Assembly (NCBI RefSeq): GCF_013149785.1
Contig: NZ_JABEZU010000001.1
Location: 1,426,001-1,490,000 of the forward strand
Source: Isoptericola halotolerans
GTDB lineage: Bacteria; Actinomycetota; Actinomycetes; Actinomycetales; Cellulomonadaceae
Length of the DNA: 64,000 nucleotides
Reading direction: 5' to 3'
Below the pieces are notes generated by a model. The model made no database searches. It was not told where the DNA came from and saw only the letters and a program-made list of their open reading frames with translations. Made by a program: the position numbers and the translations under genes. Each line of letters opens with the position of its first letter. The stretch's first letter is position 1. Shown one piece after another: positions 36,701 to 48,083 of this stretch.

Positions 36701-37057
36701 GTGGGGGCCAAGGACGCCGTCGGGCGATACGGAGAACGGGTGGCGGCGCGCTACCTGACCGGGCGCGGCTACGAGGTGATCGACCGCAACTGGCGCGGTA
36801 CGCGGGGCGAGCTGGACCTGGTGACCCGCCACGGCGACACCCTGGTGGTGGTCGAGGTCAAGACGCGGCGGGGGACAGGCTACGGGCACCCGGCCGAGGC
36901 CGTCACGCGCGCCAAGCTCGACCGGATCCGACGGTTGACGGGGGAGTGGCTGCACACGCACGGCGTGCCGTGGTTGGAGGTGCGCGTGGACGTCGTCGCC
37001 GTCGTCGTGGCACGGGCCGGTGCGGCACGCGTCGAGCATCTGCGAGGTGTCCTCTGA
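36701..37057 (+). CDS. yraN: YraN/UPF0102 putative endonuclease-fold protein
   Basis: 118 residues. GRYGERVAARYLTGRGYEVIDRNWR, then GELDLVTRHGDTLVVVEVKTRRG: the D..ExK pattern of PD-(D/E)XK nucleases typical of UPF0102. The biochemical role is unproven; it is always beside comM/dprA. GTG 36701 follows GGAGGTGG. Its stop shares one base with the comM start. Confidence 0.92.
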   Translation: MGAKDAVGRYGERVAARYLTGRGYEVIDRNWRGTRGELDLVTRHGDTLVVVEVKTRRGTGYGHPAEAVTRAKLDRIRRLTGEWLHTHGVPWLEVRVDVVAVVVARAGAARVEHLRGVL

Positions 37058-37317
37058 TGGGTCTGGGGACGACTGCCTCGGTCGCGCTGACCGGGATGGA
37101 GGGCCACGTCGTCGAGGTCCAGGCACAGCTCGCCGCCTCGGTGCCGGGCTTCACCCTCGTCGGGCTGCCGGACGCCGCCCTCGCCGAGTCCCGGGACCGG
37201 GTCCGCGCCGCCGTGCTCTCGAGCGGCATCGCCTGGCCGCAGCGCAAGATCACCGTCAACCTGTCGCCGGCGTCGCTGCGCAAGTCCGGCACAGGCTTCG
37301 ACCTGTCAAGCACCTAG
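37057..37317 (+). pseudogene. comM: comM 5' fragment, interrupted by the integrated element
   Basis: The first 82 codons are normal ComM/YifB: MEGHVVEVQAQLAASVPGF, GLPDAALAESRDRVRAA and NLSPASLRKSGTGFD. After GAC (37300-37302) the frame enters the element and stops at TAG 37315. The remainder of the gene resumes at 46791 in the same frame, and precise excision would rebuild a 512-codon gene. Intact ComM is an AAA+ branch-migration helicase used in natural transformation. The 86-residue fragment lacks the ATPase and is not functional alone. Confidence 0.93.
37300..37305 (+). other. attL core (GACCTG)
   Basis: The 6-bp identity GACCTG is shared by both junctions (37300-37305 and 46788-46793). 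The likely crossover dinucleotide is CT at 37303-37304, placed by the symmetry of the reconstructed attP. The left half is comM; the right half is element DNA. Confidence 0.85.
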
Positions 37318-37330
37318 AGTGGACAGCACT

Positions 37331-38719
37331 ATGGAAGCTGTCATCTACGTACGCATCAGCCGAGACCGCGAGGGCGCCGGCCTGGGGGTCGACCGTCAGG
37401 AAGCAGACTGTCGCGAACTCGCCGACCGACTTGGCTGGAACGTGGTCCAGGTCCACTCCGACAACGACCTGTCGGCCTACTCAGGGAAGCCTAGGCCTGG
37501 GTACCGAGCCATGCTCGAGGATCTTCGCCATGGGCGCGCCAACGCTGTCGTCGCCTGGCACTCCGATCGGCTGCACCGCAAGGTCGCGGAACTCGAGGAG
37601 TTCGTCGCGATCTGCGACGAGCACAAAATCGCCGTGCAGACCGTCCGCTCAGGCTCTGTCGACCTCGCAACGGCATCGGGGCGCATGGTGGCCCGGATGC
37701 TCGGCGCGGCTTCACAGCACGAGATCGACCATGCCCGCGAGCGGATGCAGCGCGCCAAGCGCCAGGCTGCAGCTGCCGGGAAGTGGCGCGGGGGACCGCG
37801 ACCGTTCGGCTACGAGGCTGATGGCGTGACCGTTCGCCCGAGCGAGGCAGAGGTTCTGCTTCGTGCGGCTCGTGGCATCCTCGCCGGTCGATCGCTGAAT
37901 GCCCTTGCGCGTGAACTCAACGAAGCGGGGATCACCACCACACGTGGAAGCCGGGTCGACGGAGTCAACCTCCGAACGATGCTGCTCCGGCCGCGCAATG
38001 CTGGGCTCATCGACGAGCGTGGCGAGATCGTCGGCGATGCGTCGTGGCCCGCGATCATCCCAGAGGACATCTGGCGCGGCGTTGTGGCGACGTTGTCCGA
38101 CCCGACTCGCACGACCACTACGGGGCCGGAGCGACGGTGGCTCGGGTCCGGGCTGTATCGCTGCGGCGTCTGCAGAGGCCCGCTGCGAGCGTCAAAGCAG
38201 AAGATGCGTCACGCCTACCGCTGTACGCACGGGTCGCACGTGACCCGGGACGCGATCGCAGTTGACGAGTACGTGCGTCAGGTCGTCGTAGGTGTGCTCT
38301 CTCGGCCCGATGCGGCCGACCTGCTGGCAGAGTCCGACGACGGCCTGATCGAGGCTCTGCGCGCCGAGAGCGAGTCCCTGCGGGCGCGCCTGTCTAGGTT
38401 CGAGGCCGACTACGCCGAGGGGGCGATCTCAGGTCGCCAGCTCCGTGCTGCGACCGAGCGCGTCGAAGCAGACCTCGAAGCCGTAAACGCCCGTCTGGCA
38501 GGCGCACTGCGAGGCGATGCACTCGGGGGAGTGCTGGGCGCTGCGAGCCCCGGAGAGGCGTTCCTCGTGGCTCCGCTGGACGTGCAACGAGCCGTACTCG
38601 ATGCCCTCGCGGAAGTCACGATCAACAAGGGTCGCAAGGGACGCCCTCGCGGGTGGAAGCCTGGAGAGCCGTACGTGGACCTCGAGACGGTCGAAATCAA
38701 GCCAAGGGGTATCTCATGA
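37331..38719 (+). CDS. int: Large serine recombinase (integrase)
   Basis: 462 residues from ATG 37331. The resolvase domain starts MEAVIYVRIS with catalytic Ser10, and GLGVDRQ and GRMVARMLGAASQHEIDHARERM follow. A recombinase domain (about 155-255) leads to a zinc ribbon with CGVC (about 280) and a later Cys/His pair. A Leu/Glu/Arg coiled coil (about 345-395) and a basic tail end the protein. The gene begins 26 nt inside the left att core, so attP abuts its promoter; TAGAGT (37315-37320) is the likely -10. It should catalyse directional attP x attB recombination at comM. Confidence 0.95.
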   Translation: MEAVIYVRISRDREGAGLGVDRQEADCRELADRLGWNVVQVHSDNDLSAYSGKPRPGYRAMLEDLRHGRANAVVAWHSDRLHRKVAELEEFVAICDEHKIAVQTVRSGSVDLATASGRMVARMLGAASQHEIDHARERMQRAKRQAAAAGKWRGGPRPFGYEADGVTVRPSEAEVLLRAARGILAGRSLNALARELNEAGITTTRGSRVDGVNLRTMLLRPRNAGLIDERGEIVGDASWPAIIPEDIWRGVVATLSDPTRTTTTGPERRWLGSGLYRCGVCRGPLRASKQKMRHAYRCTHGSHVTRDAIAVDEYVRQVVVGVLSRPDAADLLAESDDGLIEALRAESESLRARLSRFEADYAEGAISGRQLRAATERVEADLEAVNARLAGALRGDALGGVLGAASPGEAFLVAPLDVQRAVLDALAEVTINKGRKGRPRGWKPGEPYVDLETVEIKPRGIS

Positions 38720-39018
38720 GCCGGAGAAGGCCGTCAGTTGATTCGGAGCACGTGACCGTCGACATCGAGTGCGCTGCGTGCGGCAATCGAGTCGGAATCT
38801 GCATGCTGTACATCGGTGCAAGCCCGCGTGCCGGGACCTATAGCACGGGCGGCGGCGTCCGGTTCGAGGACCGTCCGACCCCGGAAGCGTCTTCGGGAAA
38901 GGTGCGTGGACGATGCGGAAAGTGCGGCGCGGACGTCCAGCTTCGATGGTCGCGCGTGAAAGCTCGTCTCGACGGAAACCTCGTCGCGCGTAGATACAAC
39001 GACTCGATGCGTGCCTAG
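38716..39018 (+). CDS. Zinc-ribbon protein downstream of integrase
   Basis: 100 residues from ATG 38716, overlapping the integrase stop (ATGA) with AAGGGG upstream. Two CxxC pairs, ECAACGN (about residue 17) and GRCGKCGA (about 68), suggest one four-Cys zinc ribbon. The middle is Gly/Thr-rich; the C-terminus is basic (VKARLDGNLVARRYN). Translational coupling to the integrase suggests a recombination accessory or regulator, but this is inference. Confidence 0.75.
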   Translation: MSRRRPSVDSEHVTVDIECAACGNRVGICMLYIGASPRAGTYSTGGGVRFEDRPTPEASSGKVRGRCGKCGADVQLRWSRVKARLDGNLVARRYNDSMRA

Positions 39019-39145
39019 CACCGGAGTACGTGCTAGCATCCCTAGTAGTAGCGCGACATACAGCGCCGGTTGGGCAGCCGATTAGAGCCTAGCAAGGTGC
39101 CTCTCAGCGGAGGTGCGCAGAAGCATCCCGCTGGAGGCATCATTC
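39012..39145 (+). promoter_or_regulatory. Early-operon control region with three CTAGCA repeats
   Basis: CTAGCA occurs at 39015-39020, 39033-39038 and 39089-39094, plus CTAGTAGTAG at 39042. CTAG is normally rare in such GC-rich DNA. The same hexamer appears at 44545-44550. The region precedes the replication-type operon starting at 39146, so these may be repressor or promoter elements. Confidence 0.5.
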
Positions 39146-39355
39146 ATGTCCCGCAGTGTCACGGTCGCTCGAGCACAGCTCGCGGCCAGACTCCGACACC
39201 ATCCAGAGCAGGATCACTCCGCACTACGGGCCGAGCTGCGCGCGCTGAAACTCGAGCAGCACGTCGCCCGGACCCTCGCAGAGTTCCCGCCGCTCACTCC
39301 CGAGCAGCGTTCCCGCATCGCCGCTCTACTGGGCGGCGGTGGCGCCAATGCCTGA
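39146..39355 (+). CDS. Small element protein, 69 residues
   Basis: Starts at ATG 39146 with TGGAGG at 39132-39137. The protein is helical and charged: MSRSVTVARAQLAARLRHH and a C-terminal PPLTPEQRSRIAALLGG segment. This type of 60-70 residue protein is common in actinobacterial phages and small integrative elements. No function is recognised. It is the first gene of the run 39146-41340, and its stop overlaps the next gene. Confidence 0.7.
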   Translation: MSRSVTVARAQLAARLRHHPEQDHSALRAELRALKLEQHVARTLAEFPPLTPEQRSRIAALLGGGGANA

Positions 39356-39602
39356 CCTGACACGAGAAAGCCGCCCCAGGCTAGAGGGCGGCGTCTCGAA
39401 CGATCACGTGGGCGCGGGATCGACTTCGACTATACCGCCCTTCCTCGACGGGTACGAGATCGGGGTCCTTCACGGAATCGCGCTGGGCAGGCGCCAGCTC
39501 GAAGAGGAAATCGCAGAGACGCAGCGACTCGGCATGGCGCGTGGCCTTCAGGCAATGGCCGTCCGTGCTGCCGGCGCCTATCTGCCGGGGGTTGCGCCAT
39601 GA
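39348..39602 (+). CDS. Small element protein, 84 residues
   Basis: ATG 39348 lies within the end of the previous gene and the TGA overlaps the RepA-like ATPase start (ATGA), so three genes are translationally coupled. The C-terminal half is helical (LHGIALGRRQLEEEIAETQRLGMARGLQ). No known motif is visible. The position suggests a replication accessory, as inference. Confidence 0.65.
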   Translation: MPDLTRESRPRLEGGVSNDHVGAGSTSTIPPFLDGYEIGVLHGIALGRRQLEEEIAETQRLGMARGLQAMAVRAAGAYLPGVAP

Positions 39603-40534
39603 CCGAACTCCGATCTCGAATCCTCTCCGTCTCTCAGCTCGATCGTCTCCCAGAGCCGAAGCCGCTCATTGAAGGCACGGTCGACCTCGGTACCGTGTCG
39701 GTGCTCGCTGGACCTCCGCAGTCGCTCAAGTCGTTCGTGCTGCTCGACTGGGCTTCGTGCGTAGCCACAGGCAAGGCGTGGCAGGGCCGTCCGGTGGAGC
39801 AGCGGCGAGTCCTGTATGTCGCTGGAGAGGGCGCGCACGGCATTAATCAGCGACTCAAGGCGTGGCGCGTCGGCTGGCGCCAGGAGATCCTCGAAGACCG
39901 CTTCTCGCTCCTGCCGAACCCGGTCCACCTGCTGAACCCGTCCGACGTCTCGGAACTCTGCGAGGTCGTCTGGGAGGACGGCTACGGGCTCGTCATCCTC
40001 GACACGCTCAGCAAGTCGATGGCAGGAGCCGACGAGAACTCGGCCAAGGACATGTCGTCTGCCGTGGCGTCGATGTACCGCATCCTCGCCGCGACCAACG
40101 GCGGGAGCGTCATGACGGCTCACCACACCGGCAAGGACCGTACGACGATCCGCGGTTCATCCGCACTGGAGGCCGGTGTCGACACCGTCTACACGACCGA
40201 CGGCAACGCGGCTGCCATGACGCTCAAGCGAACCAAGCGGAAGGACGGTCCCGTCGAGGACCAGCTCGAACTCCGGTTCTCCGAGACACAGGGCACCCGA
40301 TCCGGCACCGTCGAGCGCCGTGCACCCGTGGGAATTTCCCAAGCGGCCGAGAGCCTGCTTTCCCACGTTACTTCCCACTATGAGGGCGTTACGTTCACTC
40401 GCCAGCAGCTCGTGGATACGTCCGGGATCTCCAAGTCGACCGTCTACCGCGTGGTGTCTGACCTGGTGCGATGCGGAGAGATTCTCAACGTTGGGACCGA
40501 GCAGCGCCCTGCGTACCGAAGGGCCGAGCAGTGA
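39599..40534 (+). CDS. RepA/AAA_25-like ATPase (element replication)
   Basis: 311 residues. The RecA-like core has a variant Walker A GPPQSLKSF (about 38-46), Walker B YGLVILDTLS (about 128-137), and an HHTGKD motif near 183 typical of hexameric RepA-type helicases. A C-terminal winged-helix-like segment (about 255-305: FTRQQLVDTSGISKSTVYRVVSDLV) could bind DNA. Similar ATPases occur in small actinobacterial integrative elements. It probably drives replication after excision. TTCCCAC repeats lie in its 3' part and just downstream. Confidence 0.85.
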   Translation: MTELRSRILSVSQLDRLPEPKPLIEGTVDLGTVSVLAGPPQSLKSFVLLDWASCVATGKAWQGRPVEQRRVLYVAGEGAHGINQRLKAWRVGWRQEILEDRFSLLPNPVHLLNPSDVSELCEVVWEDGYGLVILDTLSKSMAGADENSAKDMSSAVASMYRILAATNGGSVMTAHHTGKDRTTIRGSSALEAGVDTVYTTDGNAAAMTLKRTKRKDGPVEDQLELRFSETQGTRSGTVERRAPVGISQAAESLLSHVTSHYEGVTFTRQQLVDTSGISKSTVYRVVSDLVRCGEILNVGTEQRPAYRRAEQ

Positions 40535-40607
40535 CAACTTCCCACGTTCCCACCGGTTCCCACGCCCCGGGAGAAGTTCCCACATTCCCCCCTGCCTATA
40601 GGCAGGG
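40360..40607 (+). repeat. Iteron-like TTCCCAC repeats and 18-bp palindrome (candidate origin)
   Basis: Exact TTCCCAC copies start at 40360, 40372, 40539, 40547, 40557 and 40577, and TTCCC relatives lie at 40336 and 40585. They are followed by the perfect palindrome CCCTGCC-TATA-GGCAGGG at 40590-40607, then GGGAA repeats in opposite orientation at 40605 and 40611. Clustering beside a RepA-like gene suggests an origin. The repeats also encode part of the next small protein. Confidence 0.6.
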
Positions 40608-40767
40608 AATGGGAACTCCGGTCGAGATTCCCGGTACCTGCTTCTGCGGCCATGTCCGCCTGATGCACGGCTCACGTACCGGCCTCATCCTGCCCGACCT
40701 CCGCTGCCGCGCCTGGGTGCTCGACCACGAGTGCGACTGCCCCGACTACGTCCCTGAGGAGAACTGA
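40531..40767 (+). CDS. Small Cys/His protein, 78 residues
   Basis: GTG 40531 overlaps the ATPase stop. The N-terminal third (SHVPTGSHAPGEVPTFPP) is low complexity because the DNA carries the TTCCCAC repeats. The C-terminal part has C-F-C-G-H, then C and C-D-C (FCGHVRLMH...RCRAW...CDCPDY), a likely metal-binding cluster. No family is recognised. It could be a DNA-binding accessory or simply a gene overlapping the origin. Confidence 0.6.
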   Translation: MTTSHVPTGSHAPGEVPTFPPAYRQGMGTPVEIPGTCFCGHVRLMHGSRTGLILPDLRCRAWVLDHECDCPDYVPEEN

Positions 40768-40768
40768 A

Positions 40769-40930
40769 ATGCCCCAGCGTCACGACCCCGGCTTCAAGAA
40801 GGCGCGTCGCCGCGGAACCCGCCGCCCCGGCGTCATCAGCGCGGCGGCCACCGAAGACCTCGCCGTCAGCCTCGTAAACCGAGGCCTCGCCAATCGCGCA
40901 ATCCTCGAAGTCCCGACCCGGAAGGCCTGA
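40769..40930 (+). CDS. Basic 53-residue element protein
   Basis: ATG 40769 follows GAGGAGAAC. The N-terminus is strongly basic (FKKARRRGTRRPGV), followed by a short helical region (LAVSLVNRGLANRAIL). This suggests a nucleic-acid-binding peptide. It is packed in the operon with 3 nt to the next ATG. No family assignment. Confidence 0.6.
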   Translation: MPQRHDPGFKKARRRGTRRPGVISAAATEDLAVSLVNRGLANRAILEVPTRKA

Positions 40931-40933
40931 GCG

Positions 40934-41164
40934 ATGACCGACGACCTCGAAACCCGCGACGTACTCGCAATGATCGAAGCCAGCGCCACCGGCAACCACG
41001 ACATCCTCGCCGCGACCGTTGCGACGCTCGACGAGGCCGAGCTCCGACGCACTGTAGCCCGCCTATGCGCACTCGTAGACCTGCGGGGCAGGGTGGGGAC
41101 CGATCAGTCCTCGACGGCCGCCTGGTGCCACTTCCTGGCCCGCATGGAAGGTCTCGTGCTATGA
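40934..41164 (+). CDS. Acidic 76-residue element protein
   Basis: ATG 40934, 3 nt after the previous stop; its own TGA overlaps the next ATG (41161). It is predicted helical: MTDDLETRDVLAMIEASATGN and DEAELRRTVARLCALVDL. The arrangement is typical of small phage operon proteins. Function unknown. Confidence 0.6.
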   Translation: MTDDLETRDVLAMIEASATGNHDILAATVATLDEAELRRTVARLCALVDLRGRVGTDQSSTAAWCHFLARMEGLVL

Positions 41165-41340
41165 GGCGCTGGTGGCATCTGCGGACTCAGCCTGTGCCGG
41201 CGGACGACCTCAACGAACCAGGGCTCGGCCAGGTCCGTGTGCCAACCCGTGCCGACTACACAGGCGTTGACGAATACGCCTACGCCGATCCCGAAGCTGT
41301 CGACCAGTGGGACGAAAGGCGCTGGGCGGAATGGCGATAA
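41161..41340 (+). CDS. 59-residue element protein rich in Trp/Tyr/Asp
   Basis: ATG 41161 overlaps the preceding stop (ATGA). The sequence is aromatic and acidic (RADYTGVDEYAYADPEAVDQWDERRWAEW), without hydrophobic helix or known motif. It is the last gene of the coupled run before the capsid leader. Confidence 0.55.
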   Translation: MRRWWHLRTQPVPADDLNEPGLGQVRVPTRADYTGVDEYAYADPEAVDQWDERRWAEWR

Positions 41341-41633
41341 ATAGGCTAGGATGAGCCTCAAGGAAAGTTCGACAAGGGTAGTGACAAGGACGAGGACCCT
41401 GCGGGGCAAGTCCGATGATCTAAACCCGAGGATCGACCTTCTCCCAGGTGCACGGCCAGCGGTAGCCAACCCGCCCGCCTATCAGGCCCGTCCGCACGAA
41501 GCACGGCCAGCGGTCACGCCACTCTCGGCAATGTCGACGAGAGACCAGGTTCAATCCGTCCGCCTTGTTGCTCAGCGGCCTCCCACACACATCAGACGTG
41601 CCACTGTGCACGCTTTCGCCCCAGGAGGGCACC
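41341..41633 (+). promoter_or_regulatory. Non-coding leader of the capsid gene
   Basis: About 290 bp. TAGGCT (41342-41347) and TAGGAT (41347-41352) are good -10 candidates, so the capsid gene probably has its own promoter and a ~280-nt leader. GCACGGCCAGCGGT occurs twice (about 41450 and 41499). An open frame from 41351 overlaps the capsid start out of frame and is not convincing. Confidence 0.4.
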
Positions 41634-42809
41634 ATGAGTACTACTACACGCGCCACGCTCCTCAAGTCCGCGCAGGACACGGCAGCCAAGGCCAAGGCAG
41701 AGAACCGCGACCTCACTGAGTCCGAGGCTGCGCAGATCGAGAGCGCCGTGGCAGAGATCAAGGCGCTAGACGCCGAGGGTTCGAACGTCGCCGCGCTCGT
41801 GCAGTCGATCGGCGGCATGGACGGCTGGACGACCGACGCCAAGTCCGGCACCTCGAACCGCGACGGTTCGACCGGGGAGGCAGGAAGCATCAGCCTGCAC
41901 GGCCTCGCCGACCGCATCACCGCCGGCATGAAGGCGTACAGCCTGGGCCACGGCCGGACCAAGGGCCTTGTCCCCTCCGGCGAGACGGTGGTCGACCTGC
42001 CCCTCGTCAACCGCGACGCGATCAAGGGCGATGCTTCTCACGAGCGTCCGCCGCGCCTGATCGACGTCATCCCCGGCGCGGGCCGGTCCGCCCCGCACTA
42101 CAGCTTCCTCAAGCAGTCCGTCATCGCCTCGCCTGGTGGCGCGGGTGTCGTCGCTGCCGGTGCGGTCAAGCCGACCAAGAAGCTTGGCGTGGAGCGGGTC
42201 GACTCCCGCTTGCGTGTGGTCGCCGTTCTGTCCGAGGGCATCGACAAGTACCTCCTCGAAGATGCCAGCAGCCTGCGCACCTGGGTCGGTACCGAGCTGG
42301 CTGAGGCCGTTCAGACCGAGCTCGAGTCCCAGGTCCTCGCAGGAGACGGCACGGGAGAGAACTTCACCGGCCTGTCGACGATCACGGGTCACCAGACCCA
42401 GGCCTTCCAGACCGACCCGCTCGTGACCCTGCGGTACGGCCTCTCCGACCTTGAGACGCTGGGCATCACGCCCTCCTTCGTGGCGCTCTCAGCTGCGGAC
42501 TGGCTGACCATCCAGACCACGCGCAACACCGGCGGCGGCTTCGACGTCGGCGGCCCGATCGACACGACGGCCCGCACCGCGTGGGGTACCCAGGTCGTCG
42601 TGGTTCCCGGTCTCGCGGCTGGGACGGGCTGGGTCGTCGGTCAGGACTCGCTCACGCTGTCCACCGACAACCACGGTGTGCGCGTCGAGTGGGGCACGCC
42701 CGGTGACACGTTCACTCGGAACCAGCTCGTGGCACGTGTCGAAGGTCGCTTCAACCTCGACGTGCTGCGCCCCCACGGTCTCGTCGAGATGACGCTGACC
42801 GACGCCTAA
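41634..42809 (+). CDS. Phage major capsid protein, HK97 fold
   Basis: 391 residues from ATG 41634 (GGAGGG at 41624). The N-terminal ~100 residues form a charged helical delta/scaffold-like region (LLKSAQDTAAKAKAENRDLTES). The core has the HK97-family features VAVLSEGIDKYLLEDAS, LESQVLAGDGTGENFTGL and a late FNLDVLRPHGLV strand. No prohead protease, portal or terminase is encoded nearby, which is odd because delta domains are usually cleaved. It may assemble with helper-phage proteins. Confidence 0.9.
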   Translation: MSTTTRATLLKSAQDTAAKAKAENRDLTESEAAQIESAVAEIKALDAEGSNVAALVQSIGGMDGWTTDAKSGTSNRDGSTGEAGSISLHGLADRITAGMKAYSLGHGRTKGLVPSGETVVDLPLVNRDAIKGDASHERPPRLIDVIPGAGRSAPHYSFLKQSVIASPGGAGVVAAGAVKPTKKLGVERVDSRLRVVAVLSEGIDKYLLEDASSLRTWVGTELAEAVQTELESQVLAGDGTGENFTGLSTITGHQTQAFQTDPLVTLRYGLSDLETLGITPSFVALSAADWLTIQTTRNTGGGFDVGGPIDTTARTAWGTQVVVVPGLAAGTGWVVGQDSLTLSTDNHGVRVEWGTPGDTFTRNQLVARVEGRFNLDVLRPHGLVEMTLTDA

Positions 42810-42813
42810 GACT

Positions 42814-42892
42814 GCTGATCGGTGGAGGTTCGTGACAGTTCCGCCAGCCGATCAGCATCGCGTCCGGTCCTGCTTTCGAGCGGGACCGGACG
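42814..42892 (+). terminator. Two hairpins after the capsid gene
   Basis: GCTGATCGG (42814-42822) pairs with CCGATCAGC (42848-42856). CGTCCGGTCC (42861-42870) pairs with GGACCGGACG (42883-42892). The second is a plausible terminator for the capsid transcript, though no long T-run follows. Confidence 0.5.
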
Positions 42893-42990
42893 TGCCCCAC
42901 GGGTAGGGGGTCAAGATCGCTAGCCCCCTGACCTGCGGACAGTTGTTCCGGCAGTGATTCGTCTCTCTCTAAGGGGGGTACCCCCTCCAG

Positions 42991-43140
42991 ATGTCGAACG
43001 AAGACCTCACGAGTCTGCTGCAAGAAACGCTTGGGGACGCCCTTCTCCAACGCCCTCGGAGGAACCTGGACATGCCCAAGTCCGGACTCGCACCCTGGGA
43101 TTGCGTGCTGGAGGGGCGGCTACACCGAGTCGCTGAGTAG
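42991..43140 (+). CDS. Possible 49-residue ORF after capsid
   Basis: ATG 42991 opens a 49-residue frame (MSNEDLTSLLQETLGDALLQ...) ending at TAG 43140, overlapping the convergent gene by 21 nt. The ribosome site is weak. The start is helical and plausible, but no family is known. This is a low-confidence call. Confidence 0.25.
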   Translation: MSNEDLTSLLQETLGDALLQRPRRNLDMPKSGLAPWDCVLEGRLHRVAE

Positions 43141-43632
43141 ATCTCGCCGTAGGGAAGGAATGAAGTCCTGCATCCTCTCCGCCGCGTGATAGGTGGACCC
43201 CGAGCCGGCCGAGGGGAGCGCGTAGGACTGTCCGCCCTTGTATGAGAGCTCCACGGTGACGCGACCCGGCCACTTCACGTTTCCGAAGTGATCCGCCAGT
43301 GCGCTCACGCCCGTCTGTACCCCCAGCTGGACTAGGTCGGATCGGCGATGAGCGAGGGTGGTCCGGCTCACCTCCCCGCCGATCGTCTCGGCGACCACGG
43401 CGACGAGTAGCGACTTGGTGAAGATGAGTAGGTGGGCGGTGTGATCCTCATCGTGCTGGCCGGTCGCGTAGCCATCGGCGAACACGACCTCCTCTCCATC
43501 GACGAGGAGGGCGGCATCTCCGAGCGCCTTGCCATACCAGTCCGGCAAGTCTCCCTGAAGGTAGTTCGTCGGAAGCGTCCATCCCGCGACGACTCCCTCG
43601 TGGATCGGTCGCACCAAGTTGACCACGGACAT
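43120..43632 (-). CDS. Uncharacterised 170-residue cargo protein
   Basis: ATG 43632 has a perfect AGGAGG 5 nt upstream on the reverse strand. The pattern of alternating strands (EEVVFADGY, AHLLIFTKSLLVAVVAE, RVTVELSYKG) followed by a final helix (AAERMQDFIPSLRRDLL) looks like a PH-like small beta fold, but this is only a visual impression. It is the only reverse gene between the capsid and HTH genes, transcribed alone, as expected for lysogeny-expressed cargo. Confidence 0.65.
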   Translation of the reverse strand: MSVVNLVRPIHEGVVAGWTLPTNYLQGDLPDWYGKALGDAALLVDGEEVVFADGYATGQHDEDHTAHLLIFTKSLLVAVVAETIGGEVSRTTLAHRRSDLVQLGVQTGVSALADHFGNVKWPGRVTVELSYKGGQSYALPSAGSGSTYHAAERMQDFIPSLRRDLLSDSV

Positions 43633-43727
43633 CAAGACCTCCTACATCGCAAGTTCGTATCAGGCTAGGCCACGTACCCGGACGTGTGCCTGACGGGGCC
43701 ATGCCGGCCCCTGGCAGACTGCTCCGC

Positions 43728-43970
43728 GTGACGGCGAAGCGATTCCTTGACCTGAAGGCCGTGTCCGACGAGCTGGCGGTCACCAAGGCCCAGGTGTACA
43801 CGATCCTCAAGAACGGCGATCTGCCGGCGATCCAGGTCGGTCCGAAGAAGGTGTGGCGAATCGAGCGGACCAAGCTCGAGGAGTACATCGAGCGTCGGTA
43901 CGCCGCCACACGCGAGGCTGTCGAACGTGGAGACGTGCCGGACGAGGACCCTGAGGACCCCGAGGACTGA
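43728..43970 (+). CDS. HTH_17 / excisionase-type DNA-binding protein
   Basis: 80 residues from GTG 43728; ATG 43701 would add nine. The sequence RFLDLKAVSDELAVTKAQVYTILKNGDLPAIQVGPKKVWRI is the MerR-like excisionase (HTH_17) pattern, followed by an acidic tail (DEDPEDPED). CAGACT at 43715-43720 is 7 nt before the GTG, so it may be leaderless. It is the best candidate recombination directionality factor for the serine integrase. It could alternatively be a transcription factor. Confidence 0.85.
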   Translation: MTAKRFLDLKAVSDELAVTKAQVYTILKNGDLPAIQVGPKKVWRIERTKLEEYIERRYAATREAVERGDVPDEDPEDPED

Positions 43971-44209
43971 TGCCGTACCCGTCGCGTCCGGTGCTGGACG
44001 TGCTGCCGCAGTTCCGCGGTGACCTCAAGAACGGGTACAACCGCTTCCAGCTCGAACGGTTCGACGCGTTCGTCGCTGCGGAGTACATGGCGGGGCGGTC
44101 GTTGCGCGAGATCGGCGAGCTGACGGGGCGCACGCAGACGGCCGTTCGGCGCAGTCTCGACCGGACGGGGACCCCGCGGCGGGGCAGAGGAGCGCGCTCG
44201 TTGCGCTAG
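43970..44209 (+). CDS. Small helix-turn-helix protein
   Basis: 79 residues, the ATG sharing one base with the previous stop. FVAAEYMAGRSLREIGELTGRTQTAVRRSLDRTGTPRRGRGAR is a resolvase-type HTH with basic C-terminal arm. It is co-transcribed with the excisionase-like gene. Its stop TAG is part of the -10 box (TAGAGT) of the SOS-type promoter that follows. Confidence 0.8.
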   Translation: MPYPSRPVLDVLPQFRGDLKNGYNRFQLERFDAFVAAEYMAGRSLREIGELTGRTQTAVRRSLDRTGTPRRGRGARSLR

Positions 44210-44228
44210 AGTTCGAACATGCGTTCGA
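44207..44228 (+). promoter_or_regulatory. LexA (SOS) box overlapping a leaderless promoter
   Basis: TCGAAC-ATGC-GTTCGA at 44213-44228 is a perfect match to the actinobacterial SOS box TCGAAC-N4-GTTCGA. TAGAGT at 44207-44212 ends immediately before it, and an ATG at 44219 sits in its centre, at the expected start site of a leaderless transcript. LexA binding would directly occlude transcription start. I found no second copy in the window. Confidence 0.75.
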
Positions 44229-44332
44229 ACCGAGGCGCGGGTGCTGGACGAGGTATCGAGAGGGTCCCGCTGCGGGACTTCGCTACTGAGGTGCCCCCCG
44301 CAAGCGAGGCCGGAGCCGCCGACGCGTCCTGA
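44219..44332 (+). CDS. Putative SOS-induced 37-residue leaderless protein
   Basis: ATG 44219 lies 6 nt after TAGAGT, matching the leaderless start signature used by many genes here. The product begins MRSNRGAGAGRGIERVPLRD and ends TGA 44332, 7 nt before the next GTG. It is small and has an Arg/Gly-rich N-terminus. An antirepressor or induction peptide would fit the LexA box, but there is no homology evidence. Confidence 0.4.
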   Translation: MRSNRGAGAGRGIERVPLRDFATEVPPASEAGAADAS

Positions 44333-44339
44333 CGATCCC

Positions 44340-44501
44340 GTGCCCGTGACTGCCTGGGTCACCGACGGCAAGGGGCGAACGTTCGAAGCTACCGGCGAGG
44401 CTCTGGCGTGGACGCCCAAGGCCGTCTACGTGCGCTACATCGATCCTGGCGGCCGTGAGGGCTTCGCGTGGCCCTGGGCGTCGGCGGTCACGCGCCGGTA
44501 G
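44340..44501 (+). CDS. 53-residue element protein
   Basis: GTG 44340 gives MPVTAWVTDGKGRTF...YVRYIDPGGREGFAWPWASAVTRR. It reads like one small beta-rich domain. It follows the LexA-controlled small ORF by 7 nt and ends 80 nt before a strong terminator, so it probably belongs to the SOS transcript. Function unknown. Confidence 0.55.
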   Translation: MPVTAWVTDGKGRTFEATGEALAWTPKAVYVRYIDPGGREGFAWPWASAVTRR

Positions 44502-44580
44502 TTGGGCGGTGGGTTCACAGGCCTAATAGGTCTGTGTTACGTTACTAGCACCTACCCGGTCGCTTCGGTGGCCGGGCCCG

Positions 44581-44606
44581 GAGCCAGGCCCGACAGGGCC
44601 TGGCTC
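44581..44606 (+). terminator. Strong intrinsic terminator (bidirectional)
   Basis: GAGCCAGGCCC (44581-44591), loop GACA, GGGCCTGGCTC (44596-44606), then TTTGTCTCT. This is a perfect 11-bp stem with T-rich follow-up. It separates the forward SOS/HTH operon from the convergent NYN gene. Confidence 0.85.
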
Positions 44607-44614
44607 TTTGTCTC

Positions 44615-45298
44615 TCACTGCCAGGTGCCGGGCTTGCTGGTGGTGGACCCGTCAGGGAGCGTGACTGTCGAGGGGAACTGCGCACGGGCCAGTGTCTTGG
44701 GCCGAACTTCGCGGCGTTCTCGTGCGACCAGGGATGGCGCGCGGCCTTTGCGGGGGTTCGCGACGATGACGCGACGACCCATGCCTTCGAGGATTCGGAC
44801 TGCCTCCTGAAGGTCTGAATCGTCGCTCACGACCAGTGACGCCTCGTGGGCGTAGACGAAGTGGTCTCGTACGAGCCGCACAGCAAGGTTGACGTCCGAC
44901 CCCTTCTCCTCGGGTTTCTTGATCGTCGCAGTCGTTGCCGCACAGCACTTGCAGCCACGTGAAGCGCAGCACGTACAGCTCACGTTGGGCACGCGTGCCG
45001 ACGTGACGTCTCGCACCCGGAAGTGCCCCTCGAGCACCTCTACCCTCGGCGCGAGCGACTCAAGCGCACGCAAGTAGAACTGTTGGCGAGTTGGTGCGTG
45101 CGGATCATGGGGGAGCGCGGTGACCCGAGCTGTGCAATAGACGACTGCTTCGACCTCATGGTGTGGCAGCAGCAAGCGCGACCATTCAAGGACGTCGAGC
45201 CAGCGGTGCGGGGTCTTTCGAAGTGCCCCGTAGTAGAGGTTGAAGCCATCGATGTACACGCGCGCTGTAGGTCTGCTTCCGGCCATGCCCATGGACAT
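44615..45298 (-). CDS. NYN-domain (PIN-like) putative ribonuclease
   Basis: 227 residues. VYIDGFNLYYGAL (first acid), EKGSDVNLAVRLVRD and LVVSDDSDLQEAVRILEGMG are the NYN/LabA metal-site motifs. A Cys-rich insert with eight Cys in about 18 residues (CTCC..CKCC, residues 100-120) sits before the second motif and may bind metal. The start ATG 45298 lacks a clear ribosome site. NYN proteins are metal-dependent RNases. In a satellite this may be a defence or host-control gene, as inference. Confidence 0.85.
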   Translation of the reverse strand: MSMGMAGSRPTARVYIDGFNLYYGALRKTPHRWLDVLEWSRLLLPHHEVEAVVYCTARVTALPHDPHAPTRQQFYLRALESLAPRVEVLEGHFRVRDVTSARVPNVSCTCCASRGCKCCAATTATIKKPEEKGSDVNLAVRLVRDHFVYAHEASLVVSDDSDLQEAVRILEGMGRRVIVANPRKGRAPSLVARERREVRPKTLARAQFPSTVTLPDGSTTSKPGTWQ

Positions 45299-45310
45299 TA
45301 CTACTCATGG

Positions 45311-45342
45311 AACGCCCCCGGTCCAGACGGACCGGGGGCGTT
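45311..45342. terminator. 14-bp hairpin between NYN gene and XRE gene
   Basis: AACGCCCCCGGTCC (45311-45324) and GGACCGGGGGCGTT (45329-45342) pair perfectly with loop AGAC. It lies in the leader of the NYN gene and would attenuate transcription coming from the XRE genes upstream on the reverse strand. Confidence 0.75.
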
Positions 45343-45359
45343 CTTCGTGCGTATGAGGC

Positions 45360-45563
45360 TCAGGCAGCCTGCCCAGTGACGAGCTCCGGCACCGTCACCT
45401 CGAACTGGGCAGCGATGTCGGCGAGTAGGTCGGCCTCGAACGGCCGCTTGCCCGTCATCCGCTGTGACAACTCGTCAGGGCTGACACGGACGCACACGGC
45501 AAGCTCCGACTGCCGCACGTCGTGATGCCAGCACCACCAGCGGATGCCGTCGGAGGGAGTCAC
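45360..45563 (-). CDS. XRE-type HTH protein (67 residues)
   Basis: GTG 45563, two bases after the upstream stop. The HTH reads WHHDVRQSELAVCVRVSPDELSQRMTGKRPFEADLLADIAAQFEVTVPELV, a classical lambda-repressor-like fold. It is only a DNA-binding domain. It probably acts with the neighbouring XRE protein as lysogeny control for the element. The role is inferred from class and position. Confidence 0.8.
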   Translation of the reverse strand: MTPSDGIRWWCWHHDVRQSELAVCVRVSPDELSQRMTGKRPFEADLLADIAAQFEVTVPELVTGQAA

Positions 45564-45565
45564 GG

Positions 45566-45841
45566 TCAGCGAACCTCGACCGGCTCTGCCCACTCAGCTG
45601 GGAAGGGGAACAGGGCCGATGGCCGCGTGATGCCCAGGGCGCGAGCGGCGAGGATGATGTCGACCGTCGTCAGCAGGCGCGGGTTCCAGAGGTGGTTGCG
45701 GAAGGTAGACGGGTTGAGGCCCGCTGCTCGAGCGATGGCCGCCCGGGTCATCCCTCGCTCTTCGATCTCTCGGCTGATGTTCGCAGCGACGTTGTTCGCG
45801 AAGTCGCGGTAGCTCGGCTCGGGGTGCTGGGTGGTGGTCAT
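45566..45841 (-). CDS. XRE-family HTH regulator (91 residues)
   Basis: ATG 45841 with GAGGAG 5 nt upstream. The HTH region IEERGMTRAAIARAAGLNPSTFRNHLWNPRLLTTVDIILAARALGI is clear. Two XRE genes in tandem on the reverse strand are typical of phage-element immunity regions. A candidate repressor of the CTAGCA-containing early region, but no direct evidence. Confidence 0.82.
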   Translation of the reverse strand: MTTTQHPEPSYRDFANNVAANISREIEERGMTRAAIARAAGLNPSTFRNHLWNPRLLTTVDIILAARALGITRPSALFPFPAEWAEPVEVR

Positions 45842-45850
45842 GATGACTCC

Positions 45851-46300
45851 TCAGTCCTGCTGGATGTCGGCAAGTGAGGTGGCGAGACGCTGAAGTCCCT
45901 CAGCGAGGGCCATGATGTTCTCCGGCGTCTGAGCTTCCTCGGCGTCGTCGACATCGACGTACAGGGTGGCCACGCCCGCCTCGAGAGCTCCGGGCCGAAG
46001 CATGACCTCGGTCTGGGTGAGCACGGCGGAGGCGAACCCTGGCACGACGGCCGTGACGCTCAGGCTTCGCCTCCAGCCGTCCCCGTTCCCCCACCAGGAC
46101 CACGGCTCGGCGTCCTCGGCCCAGTCCGGTGCGGTGGCGTCCGGTGCCGGGAAGGTGGGGACCGCGCTCTGGACGAACTCCTCGGCCCTCACGGGGTCGT
46201 CGATGACGCTGACCACGCGACGAACCTCCTTCGGCTGATTGACGGGGTAGCGGTCGACGAGCGCCTTGCGGTCGGCGTCCGTGAAGGTGGTGGCGGTCAT
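45851..46300 (-). CDS. Uncharacterised 149-residue protein
   Basis: ATG 46300 with AAGGAG upstream; it overlaps the preceding gene by 4 nt. It is acidic with a Trp-rich centre (DAEPWSWWGNGDGWRRSL) and a C-terminal helix. It reads as a soluble protein with alternating strands. No named family is recognised. Part of a four-to-five gene reverse operon likely expressed in the integrated state. Confidence 0.65.
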   Translation of the reverse strand: MTATTFTDADRKALVDRYPVNQPKEVRRVVSVIDDPVRAEEFVQSAVPTFPAPDATAPDWAEDAEPWSWWGNGDGWRRSLSVTAVVPGFASAVLTQTEVMLRPGALEAGVATLYVDVDDAEEAQTPENIMALAEGLQRLATSLADIQQD

Positions 46301-46488
46301 GGTGTCTGCTCCTTCGAGATGCGTACTGCGGTGACTTCACCTGCACGGGCGACATGCGGGTGTCCCTCCAAGGTGCGGAGGATGTAGGGGTACGTCTCGT
46401 CATCGGTGACGACACGAACCTCAGCGAAGACCGGTGGTGCGCCCTCAAGCCGGAAGAGGACGAGTTCACCGACCTCGTGGCCTTCCAT
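46297..46488 (-). CDS. 63-residue protein of unknown function
   Basis: ATG 46488 lies 1 nt after the previous stop. MEGHEVGELVLFRLEGAPPVFAEVRVVTDDETYPYIL reads as a small beta-rich domain. Its stop overlaps the next ATG by 4 nt. Function not recognised. Confidence 0.55.
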   Translation of the reverse strand: MEGHEVGELVLFRLEGAPPVFAEVRVVTDDETYPYILRTLEGHPHVARAGEVTAVRISKEQTP

Positions 46489-46489
46489 G

Positions 46490-46696
46490 TCAGGCCTGCC
46501 CGATGCGGGCGCCGACCTTGGCGCGAGCACCTGCCCGCTCGCGGGAGTCGGCGAACGCGGCAAGCGCTATCGCTTCCTCGTGCTGTCCGTCGATGATCAG
46601 GCGGTCAACCTCGGCACGCATGTCGGCGACGACCTGGGTGGTACGAGCGGCGACGCGGTCGGCCTGGGTCCGGGTGACCTGGCTAGGGTTGTTCAT
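46490..46696 (-). CDS. 68-residue helical protein, first gene of the reverse operon
   Basis: ATG 46696 with GAGAGG upstream; GTG 46705 is an alternative. It is nearly all helix (VTRTQADRVAARTTQVVADMRAEVDRLI, then HEEAIALAAFADSRERAGARAK). Its promoter must lie within the ~85 bp next to attR. Function unknown. Confidence 0.55.
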   Translation of the reverse strand: MNNPSQVTRTQADRVAARTTQVVADMRAEVDRLIIDGQHEEAIALAAFADSRERAGARAKVGARIGQA

Positions 46697-46781
46697 GGCC
46701 TGCACCTCTCACTAGGTGTTGGTCGGCCCGTTCGGTGTTCCAGCACCGGGCGGGCGTCTGTTCTAGGAGTGTCACCTACTT

Positions 46782-48083
46782 GTGCTTGACCTGGCCGTCG
46801 CCGTCGCCGTCCTGGCCGGCGCCGGCGTCGTGCCGCACCAGGGCCTCGAACGTGTGGTGCATCTCGCCGAGCTGGGTCTGGACGGGCGGCTGCAACCGGT
46901 CCGGGGAGTGCTCCCCGCGGTCGCGTCCGCCGTCGCGGGCGGGTGCACCGACGTGGTGGTCTCGGCCGCAGACGCCCCCGAGGCCCGCCTCGTGCCCGGC
47001 GCCACCGTGCACGAGGCGACGCACCTGGGCGACGTCGTCCGGCTCCACGGGGGAGAGCTGGACCGCGACCCGGACCTCGTCGCGGTGCCACGGAGCGCCC
47101 CGGCGGTGGCTCGACGCCCCGAGGGGGACCTGCGCGACGTCGTCGGGCAGAGCGAGGCTCGCTTGGCGCTGGAGGTGGCGGCCGCAGGCGGTCACCACCT
47201 GCTGATGATCGGTCCGCCGGGGGCAGGCAAGACGATGCTGGCGGCGCGGTTGCCCGGGATCCTGCCCGACCTCAGCGAGCCGGACGCCGTCGAGGTGACG
47301 GCCGTGCACTCCGTCGCGGGGACGTTCGACCCCGGGAGCGGGCTGCTGCGCCGCCCGCCCTTCGAGGATCCGCACCACACCGCGACGCCGGCGGCGATCG
47401 TCGGCGGGGGGACGGGGCTGGCACGGCCGGGTGCGGTGTCGCGGGCGCACCGGGGAGTGCTCTTCCTCGACGAGGCGCCCGAGTTCGCGCCCCGGGTGCT
47501 GCAGACGCTGCGCCAGCCGCTCGAGGCGGGCGAGCTCGTCCTGCACCGAGCCGGCGGTGCGACCCGGTACCCGGCGCGCTTCCAGCTCGTGCTCGCAGCC
47601 AACCCGTGCCCCTGCGGGATGGCGAGCACGAACGCCGGGCTCGAGTGCACCTGCACGTCGGTGGCACGCCGACGGTACGTCGGTCGGTTGTCGGGACCTC
47701 TCCTCGACCGGATCGACCTGCAGGTGCATCTCGCAGGCCTCACACGCGCCGAGCGTGTGCTCGGGCACCACGGCGAGTCGAGCGCGGACGTCGCGGGACG
47801 CGTCCGACAGGCTCGTGCGGCGGCACGAGAGAGATGGGCCGGCACCCGGTGGAGGACCAACGTCGAGCTGCCGGGGCCCTGGCTGCGGGACCGCCTGCGC
47901 GGCCGGCCCGGCGTGCTCGCGCAGGTCGAGCGACAGATCGACGCCGGAGACCTGTCGATGCGCGGCGCGGACCGGCTGCTGCGGGTCGCGTGGACGGTCG
48001 CGGACCTCGACGGGCGAGACGTGCCCACCACGGCGGACGTCGACGCCGCCATGATGTTCCGGACGGGTGAGCGCCGTGGCTGA
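46782..48083 (+). pseudogene. comM: comM 3' fragment with element-supplied start (AAA+ ATPase part)
   Basis: From CTG 46791 the frame is ComM codon 83 onward: LAVAVAVLAGAGVVP, Walker A GPPGAGKT, Walker B VLFLDEAPE, the PCPCGM...CTC cysteine cluster and the LSGPLLDRIDLQV sensor region. Upstream, attR DNA provides AGGAG (46765-46769) and an in-frame GTG (46782), so a 433-residue protein lacking only the ~82-residue N-terminal domain could be made. Whether it retains helicase activity is unknown. Excision restores the full gene. dprA overlaps its end by 17 nt. Confidence 0.85.
46788..46793 (+). other. attR core (GACCTG)
   Basis: Right copy of the 6-bp identity, with presumed crossover CT at 46791-46792. 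The left arm (element) is TGTGCTT-GAC, the right arm is comM. Combined with attL it yields attP arms GTGCTTGAC / GTCAAGCAC. Confidence 0.85.

Follow-up and report, generated by a model that had tools for sequence, protein, structure and literature searches.

A comM-splitting integrative element of Isoptericola halotolerans interpreted as a phage satellite with a lone capsid gene

The stretch of Isoptericola halotolerans DNA analysed here (the window; 64,000 nucleotides, contig NZ_JABEZU010000001.1, positions 1,426,001 to 1,490,000) carries an element of 9,488 bp (37300-46787) inside comM, whose only recognised phage structural gene codes for an HK97-type major capsid protein. The element is rather probably an integrated phage satellite of the phage-inducible chromosomal island (PICI) type, the lone capsid protein of which would act in the head assembly of a helper phage; mobility, packaging and dependence on a helper would follow from this gene content. 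The interpretation is favored by the att-bounded ends, the empty comM sites of related genomes, the element's own ATPase and repressors, and a candidate defence gene. Together with eight further loci, in which an intact capsid gene lies beside a serine or tyrosine integrase gene, the element forms, as judged from gene content, a new group of actinobacterial satellites, which is of the known “integrase plus capsid” kind and not that of the capsid-forming PICIs (cf-PICIs).

Ends, lone capsid gene and relatives of the element

Copies of the core GACCTG start at 37300 and 46788, 9,488 bp apart; the ends proposed in a preliminary description of the window (37303-46790) lie within 3 bp of them. At the attP site reconstructed across the element ends, CCTG is flanked by perfect 8-bp inverted arms, as is usual for large serine integrases. 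A 150-nt query of joined comM sequence, compared with 18 genomes of the genus, gave a continuous match across the junction in 16 of them, matched in two halves in the window's own genome, and matched with its left half only in G145, stopping at the same junction base (a 21-nt attB pattern with three mismatches allowed was too loose); the earlier view of a serine integrase element splitting comM is thus borne out. The G+C content in 500-bp windows is approximately 62-70% inside the element, 68-75% in the left flank and 72-77% in the right flank.

Among the 20 open reading frames (ORFs) of the element that were scanned against PHROGs, the capsid gene gave the sole credible match to a head, packaging, tail or lysis family; a tape-measure match inside the integrase (13.8 bits, E 0.031) was taken as chance. 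Because the gene caller, trained on high-GC genes, failed or was patchy on lower-GC contigs (L018, L072-L074, L080, L096, L157), a translated search (tblastn) was added, for which the references were 23 head and tail proteins and the small terminase of locus L160; it also recovered the integrase of L157. One protease reference of the first scan originated from L067 itself and was excluded from the second. Neither in the window element nor in the other eight loci with a lone capsid (11-21 kb each) did this search detect a large terminase, a portal, a protease or a tail gene, the one structural match among the nine loci being L160's own small terminase. In the controls, all 80 IMG/VR capsid loci gave at least one match, and a large terminase or portal was detected in 75 of the 80; an earlier ORF-based scan with phmmer agrees, giving no structural match in the window element but at least one in 72 of 73 control loci with a called capsid ORF. 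With so small a reference set, distantly related structural genes may have escaped detection. PHROG scans of the non-capsid ORFs (10 of 11 in L013, 6 of 8 in L156, all 4 called in L157, 10 of 11 in L065) agree with a lone capsid gene as well, the profile scan of L014, L017 and L158 being partial and restricted to Pfam. The absence of packaging, tail and lysis genes noted earlier therefore stands: no terminase, portal or tail gene lies elsewhere in the element, which does not have the terminase, portal, tail and lysis genes of a complete temperate phage.

Matches to the capsid protein were obtained in 10 of 221 family genomes (E 0.001), 8 of 396 order genomes (1e-25) and 7 of 394 class genomes (1e-30), the own genome being counted in each. 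In the nine other family genomes, a lone intact capsid gene was present in L013, L014 and L017 and a fragment in L015 and L016; L019 and L020 look like ordinary prophages, the contents of L018 were not readable by the gene caller, and the match in L021, inside a glycine-cleavage-like gene, is by appearance chance. The seven other order genomes comprised five lone capsids (L065 = G483, Occultella gossypii; L156; L157; L158; L160), locus L015 again (G167) and a capsid fragment (G249, L159). In L066, a metagenome-assembled genome of Propionibacterium, protease and capsid lie within one called ORF. The integrase is of the serine type in the window, L017, L065 and L156 and of the tyrosine type in L013 (profile-scanned) and in L014, L157, L158 and L160 (recognised by likeness and inspection). 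Direct repeats mark the ends of L013 (38 bp, tRNA-Lys, 8.2 kb), L157 (30 bp, tRNA-Gly, 8.1 kb), L160 (28 bp, 9.5 kb) and L158 (48 bp, tRNA-Pro, 11.9 kb, with transposase-like genes inside by inspection); the shared end cores of L156 (11 bp, a candidate), L017 (11 bp) and L065 (13 bp) are too short to trust, and L014 showed no direct repeat of at least 14 bp in the stretches compared. Since repeats of 28-48 bp lie at both ends of four loci, the lone capsid is no truncation artefact there, and a cut contig was likewise ruled out for the window. The otherwise similar 9.5-kb element L160 encodes a small terminase (8383-8895, PF05119 2.2e-14) directly upstream of its lone capsid gene. Relatives of the element thus exist, but the full gene set does not travel together, and the closest capsids stand beside other integrases; the small gene p08 is common to three of the closest capsid relatives and the leader unit described below to four.

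The capsid protein is of full length, with two predicted N-terminal helices followed by the HK97 domain. In seven of the nine satellites 96-110 residues precede the KGLVPSG anchor (HK97: 104; most aligned phages: longer). The first three relatives aligned have intact capsid ORFs, 44-64% identical to that of the window, and identity to the capsids of isolated phages is 29-35% among the matches listed. In a tree of 36 rows (9 satellites, 11 phage or prophage capsids and 16 hand-picked IMG/VR capsids), the capsids of the window, L013, L014, L065, L156, L157 and L158 form a clade with support 100/98; those of L017 and L160 fall outside with unsure placement, a single clade of all nine not being rejected (p-AU 0.251). 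The next row is the IMG/VR contig L067, which retains a protease-like gene, a position that would agree with the protease having been lost on the lineage of the satellites. The absence of SaPIbov5 Ccm from the 50 structure matches listed is uninformative. Encapsulins, as a further comparison, have the HK97 fold without a phage-type N-terminal delta domain.

The leader preceding the capsid gene

The stretch without a called ORF before the capsid gene measures 216-332 bp in eight loci and 925 bp in L157; the window leader is crossed by an out-of-frame ORF (41351-41719). In L157 (G420), a low G+C content (55%) was observed over 377 bp before the capsid gene, with no called ORF for more than 900 bp; this locus may come from a different host or have a different origin than the others. 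The 12-mer GGCCAGCGGTCA is common to the leaders of the window, L013, L065 and L156 and occurs in the own genome as a single copy, in the leader; 30 single-base shuffles yielded no 12-mer common to three leaders. A second motif, GGCCAAGNNCGAGGAGCC, is present in tandem in L013, in two to three copies in L156, and in degenerate form in the window and L014. Motif A, CACGGCCAGCGGTCA, was discarded as a specific mark: it occurs in at least 120 IMG/VR stretches, as a single copy in 79 of the 80 listed.

In IMG/VR, GGCCAAGNNCGAGGAGCC was found in 116 stretches, 115 of which were analysed (loci within L298-L412); where two tandem copies are present (38 of 115), the capsid ORF starts 58-97 bp downstream in 33 cases, the contigs of the other five ending within 179 nt. 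Single copies lie mostly elsewhere, only 10 of 77 such loci also containing a capsid ORF. In phages Kittykat, Eesa, Maja and Juno112 the repeats are coding and form the C-terminal tail of the capsid maturation protease; the units encode GGAAV or GGSAV in Eesa and Juno112 versus EPDQA in Maja, the hairpin being retained. In the satellites the reading frame is broken, because the protease is gone and the repeat spacing varies (window 22, L013 23, L156 25 and 32). The conserved remainder is GAGGA-stem-loop-stem-CAAG (GAGG in L065), with the stems CCC/GGG (window), GCCC/GGGC (L013), GCCG/CGGC (L156) and GCUCC/GGAGU (L065). By its sequence, the leader is thus taken to be inherited from a phage protease-capsid junction, and the retention of hairpin units after loss of protease and frame suggests a cis-acting signal. 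A signal that lies within a coding sequence in phages but out of frame before the capsid gene in satellites would offer a natural experiment on RNA- or DNA-level versus protein-level selection.

In 86 leaders chosen regardless of motif (9 satellites, 9 phages or prophages, 68 from IMG/VR), the hairpin unit with a stem of at least 3 bp was detected in 22 (5 of 9, 6 of 9 and 11 of 68, respectively), compared with 0-2 units in 20 rounds of dinucleotide shuffles. The free end pair of the stem covaries (39 of 46 pairs Watson-Crick versus 28.5 expected; none of 10,000 shuffles as high), as also in a check with 30 rows (0.133 versus 0.047; 0 of 500), counts that are inflated by kinship among the rows; three of the four pairs are invariant, partly as the motif served to select the rows, and constraint on the protein may account for the conserved E and K residues on either side of the hairpin. 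A covariance model built from phage sequences only matched L013 (57.7 bits) and L156 (43.6 bits) strongly, scored the window (41385-41425; 21.3 bits, E 0.017) and L014 (20.9 bits) at background level (unrelated sequence: 22.7), and gave no match in the L065 leader. Its matches in whole genomes (111 of 297 at E 0.01) had mostly low scores resembling coding background and do not serve as evidence. The unit is absent from the leaders of L017, L157, L158 and L160 (four of the nine satellites), which limits the leader claim; the whole window leader is no more stable than shuffles (z-score +0.63) and was dismissed as a stable RNA, and Rfam yielded no convincing match in the element or in nine phage contigs. 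For some members of the group, an RNA or DNA function of the unit is accordingly probable; for the window copy alone it is weakly indicated. The searched literature, with few subscription papers covered and in part accessible, contained no description of a structured leader before capsid genes, and the cis-element is possibly new.

Known satellites, helper candidates and alternative readings

Candidate PICIs of Mycobacterium, among them phiRv1 (9.3 kb) and phiRv2 (10.8 kb), both proposed satellites, are defined by an integrase together with a major capsid protein outside prophage regions (PMC10654092, PMC3986857), a definition that the window element fits as well. They resemble the window element in their small size, the serine or tyrosine integrase, the capsid gene and, in some, replication genes; the likeness to phiRv1 put forward in the preliminary description holds for size, large serine integrase and capsid. 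Unlike the window element, some of the candidates have extra head genes (terminase, scaffold; PMC10654092), and in phiBN42_1 a prohead protease adjoins the capsid gene (PMC3986857), whereas the window group has no protease and several of its members share p08 and the repeat-bearing leader; this mycobacterial comparison is one of gene content. “Integrase plus capsid” satellites as proposed for Mycobacterium would accordingly recur in other actinobacteria, and the pared-down module of small genes, leader and capsid would be a concrete case of satellites shedding phage genes. In the searched literature, with few subscription papers covered, lone-capsid satellites of actinobacteria were not described as a group.

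The staphylococcal SaPIbov5 likewise carries a capsid homologue (Ccm) without other head genes, no protease having been identified in the island; Ccm has the HK97 fold with an N-terminal delta domain, is 24% identical to the helper capsid, occupies pentamers and redirects the size of the helper head (PMC8569155). By analogy, a Ccm-like mode of action is the most likely reading for the window capsid. PmCI172 and EcCICFT073 are PICIs with a capsid-like gene, too, but proteobacterial: PmCI172 yields small heads, EcCICFT073 is apparently packaged in normal-size heads under lambda induction, and the capsid gene has no settled role in either (PMC6092414, PMC6893505). An own capsid is also shared with cf-PICIs and the Streptomyces satellites MulchRoom and MiniFlayer; these, however, encode portal and terminases (small and large in cf-PICIs, in addition to protease and connectors), none of which was found in the window element (PMC10690885). 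The small terminase beside the capsid gene of L160 resembles that of some staphylococcal SaPIs (PMC10690885).

According to the proposed course of events, infection by or induction of a helper would lift the repressors, integrase and excisionase would excise the element and restore comM, and the AAA_25 ATPase would aid replication. The satellite capsid protein, its expression probably controlled by the leader, would join helper head assembly and bias it to a small head fitting approximately 9.5 kb, and helper protease, portal, terminase and tail would complete the particle. A tentative extension, possible rather than probable, is that the phage head module has shrunk in the satellites to a single gene with its cis-signal, that the hairpin array is an undescribed RNA or DNA element controlling capsid expression or marking the genome for packaging, and that the lone capsid restricts the helper to heads of very small size, T=3 or T=4. 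The satellite sizes of 8.1-9.5 kb lie inside the genome sizes predicted for T=3 (8.1-17.1 kb) and below those for T=4 (13.2-24.5 kb; PMC7762592) and bear on the existence of T=3 heads in tailed phages.

As to a helper, none is visible in the window, as stated earlier; the candidate lies elsewhere, on contig 3 (approximately 370-413 kb), where a siphovirus-like prophage contains the one match of the own genome to the large-terminase family phrog_2 (the single family searched) and, by inspection, portal-, protease-, capsid- and tape-measure-like genes. It is a candidate helper only. The element protein m18, which had no match in phage records, has a homologue in this prophage (L161:13892-14122; 52% over 75 aa, with DNA 84-86% identical over 75 and 69 bp). 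As a source of the satellite capsid the prophage was ruled out by its long tree branch and by the absence of the unit from its capsid leader.

Several points weigh against the satellite interpretation with its helper-directed capsid. The capsid of the resident prophage is separated from the satellite capsids by a very long branch; beyond m18, nothing shared with the prophage (43.5 kb) is clearly above control level, and no packaging site was found in the element. Shared 14-mers are near control level (37 for the element; in the window flanks, 32 for the left 37 kb and 8 for the right 16 kb), so that no packaging site stands out. The argument from size for T=3 is weak, since P4 (11.6 kb) has a T=4 head where its size predicts T=3 (PMC7762592). 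In G145, with the closest integrase (93% identical), no capsid is present in the available part, which begins inside the element, and the capsid may therefore be dispensable for the integration module. The satellite protein may replace, join or poison the helper shell.

That the shell consists of satellite capsid protein only, the helper supplying just portal, protease, terminase and tail, is unlikely. The full-length protein with its two N-terminal helices and HK97 domain, an N-terminal region near that of HK97 in length in most satellites, and the diverse, intact seven-member clade are compatible with a shell-forming subunit; unlike cf-PICIs (PMC10690885), however, the element has no own portal or protease to match the shell, and the low identity to the listed phage capsids implies that fitting a foreign portal and protease would be demanding. 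Use of the capsid as a defence tool, i.e. a decoy subunit poisoning the heads of helper or invading phages in an element that is not moved, would agree with the candidate anti-phage gene HEC-09, but the capsid elements carry integrases and four have clear end repeats, pointing to mobility too; this improbable proposal would moreover be compatible with helper-directed assembly. Equally improbable is a decayed prophage remnant keeping one structural gene by chance, to which the capsid fragments in L015, L016 and L159 and the leader derived from a protease gene tail could be ascribed, but not readily the recurrence of the same lone capsid in nine loci, of which four have serine and five tyrosine integrases and three are elements of 8.1-9.5 kb with matching end repeats, nor capsid ORFs intact despite their divergence.

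Further genes and comM-inserted relatives

Each gene listed in the preliminary description (integrase, RepA-like ATPase, two helix-turn-helix (HTH) genes, XRE genes and capsid) was matched by profile search (Table 1); the HEC-09 gene and the repeat-bearing leader go beyond that list. The HEC-09 match spans nearly the full length of its gene, the Pfam NYN score of the product (2.5e-4) lying under the family cut-off; in the literature searched, the name turned up in passing mentions only. Homologues of p08 adjoin the capsid gene in L013, L014 and L065, and no counterpart of the L014 copy turned up among 50,697 phage records; in other satellites the capsid gene is also preceded by ORFs of p07-like size (by inspection).

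Table 1. Features of the comM-inserted element and its borders (window coordinates).
Feature	Position	Strand	Evidence or remark
comM 5' part, into attL	37057..37305	+	attL core GACCTG 37300-37305
Large serine integrase, ~461 aa	37331..38719	+	PF00239 Resolvase 1.1e-30; Recombinase 1.1e-8; phrog_95 1.6e-90
Small paired-cysteine protein, zinc-ribbon-like by inspection	38752..39018	+	weak matches only
Small ORFs p03, p04	39149..39602	+	p03 recurs: 56% in L156, 36% in L065
RepA-like AAA_25 ATPase, C-terminal winged helix	39599..40534	+	PF13481 3.3e-37; phrog_906 4e-43
Small ORFs p06, p06b	40609..40930	+	gene caller only; no PHROG match
p07, small, probably helical	40934..41164	+	no family match
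p08, ~59 aa, Trp-rich	41161..41340	+	identity 47% L013, 56% L014, 46% L065
Capsid leader, 293 bp, taken as non-coding	41341..41633	+	repeat-bearing
C-type leader repeats	41382-41399, 41404-41421		CCC/GGG hairpin between
A-type leader repeats	41451, 41502		
B-type leader repeats	41466, 41551		
HK97-type major capsid protein, 391 aa	41634..42809	+	PF05065 6.9e-15
m10, accessory gene	43120..43632	-	also L015 (36%), L053 (30%); no PADLOC match
HTH_17 excisionase- or AlpA-like protein	43701..43970	+	PF12728 2.4e-8; phrog_66 9.1e-7
HTH_58 DNA-binding protein	43970..44209	+	PF19575 1.3e-5
p13, small conserved protein	44241..44501	+	G145 (L052) 94%/51 aa; G136 (L019) 58%/66 aa
NYN-type nuclease-like, candidate anti-phage HEC-09	44615..45298	-	PADLOC PDLC04163 1.7e-34; phrog_7929 1.8e-34
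Two XRE or Cro-type repressors	45360..45841	-	PF13693 4.9e-7; phrog_4583 8e-10; phrog_2328 1.6e-6
ORFs m16, m17	45851..46563	-	no family assigned
m18, small protein	46490..46705	-	homologue in resident prophage
attR core and comM 3' part	46788..48083	+	attR core 46788-46793

The closest comM integrases are 93, 69, 56 and 53% identical to that of the window, and in their elements (G145 being covered in part) the window-type capsid was not found. As same-type comM integrases accompany other cargo, the integration and capsid modules move independently. Two comM elements with a related serine integrase (G171, L053:6098-16726; G161, L054 from 4794) encode a tape-measure protein of approximately 1,020-1,030 aa (phrog_971; 1.3e-143 in L053 and 6.3e-61 in L054), no capsid being recognised among the ORFs scanned; L054, which extends past the stretch examined, also contains a small-terminase-like ORF (phrog_1496 8.4e-8) and an HNH protein. 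A satellite with its own tape measure would be odd. A further comM element of 15 kb (G089, L055:1762-16929) has a large terminase and a capsid (PHROGs) as well as portal- and tail-like genes by inspection and may be either a complete phage of very small size or a satellite of the cf type.

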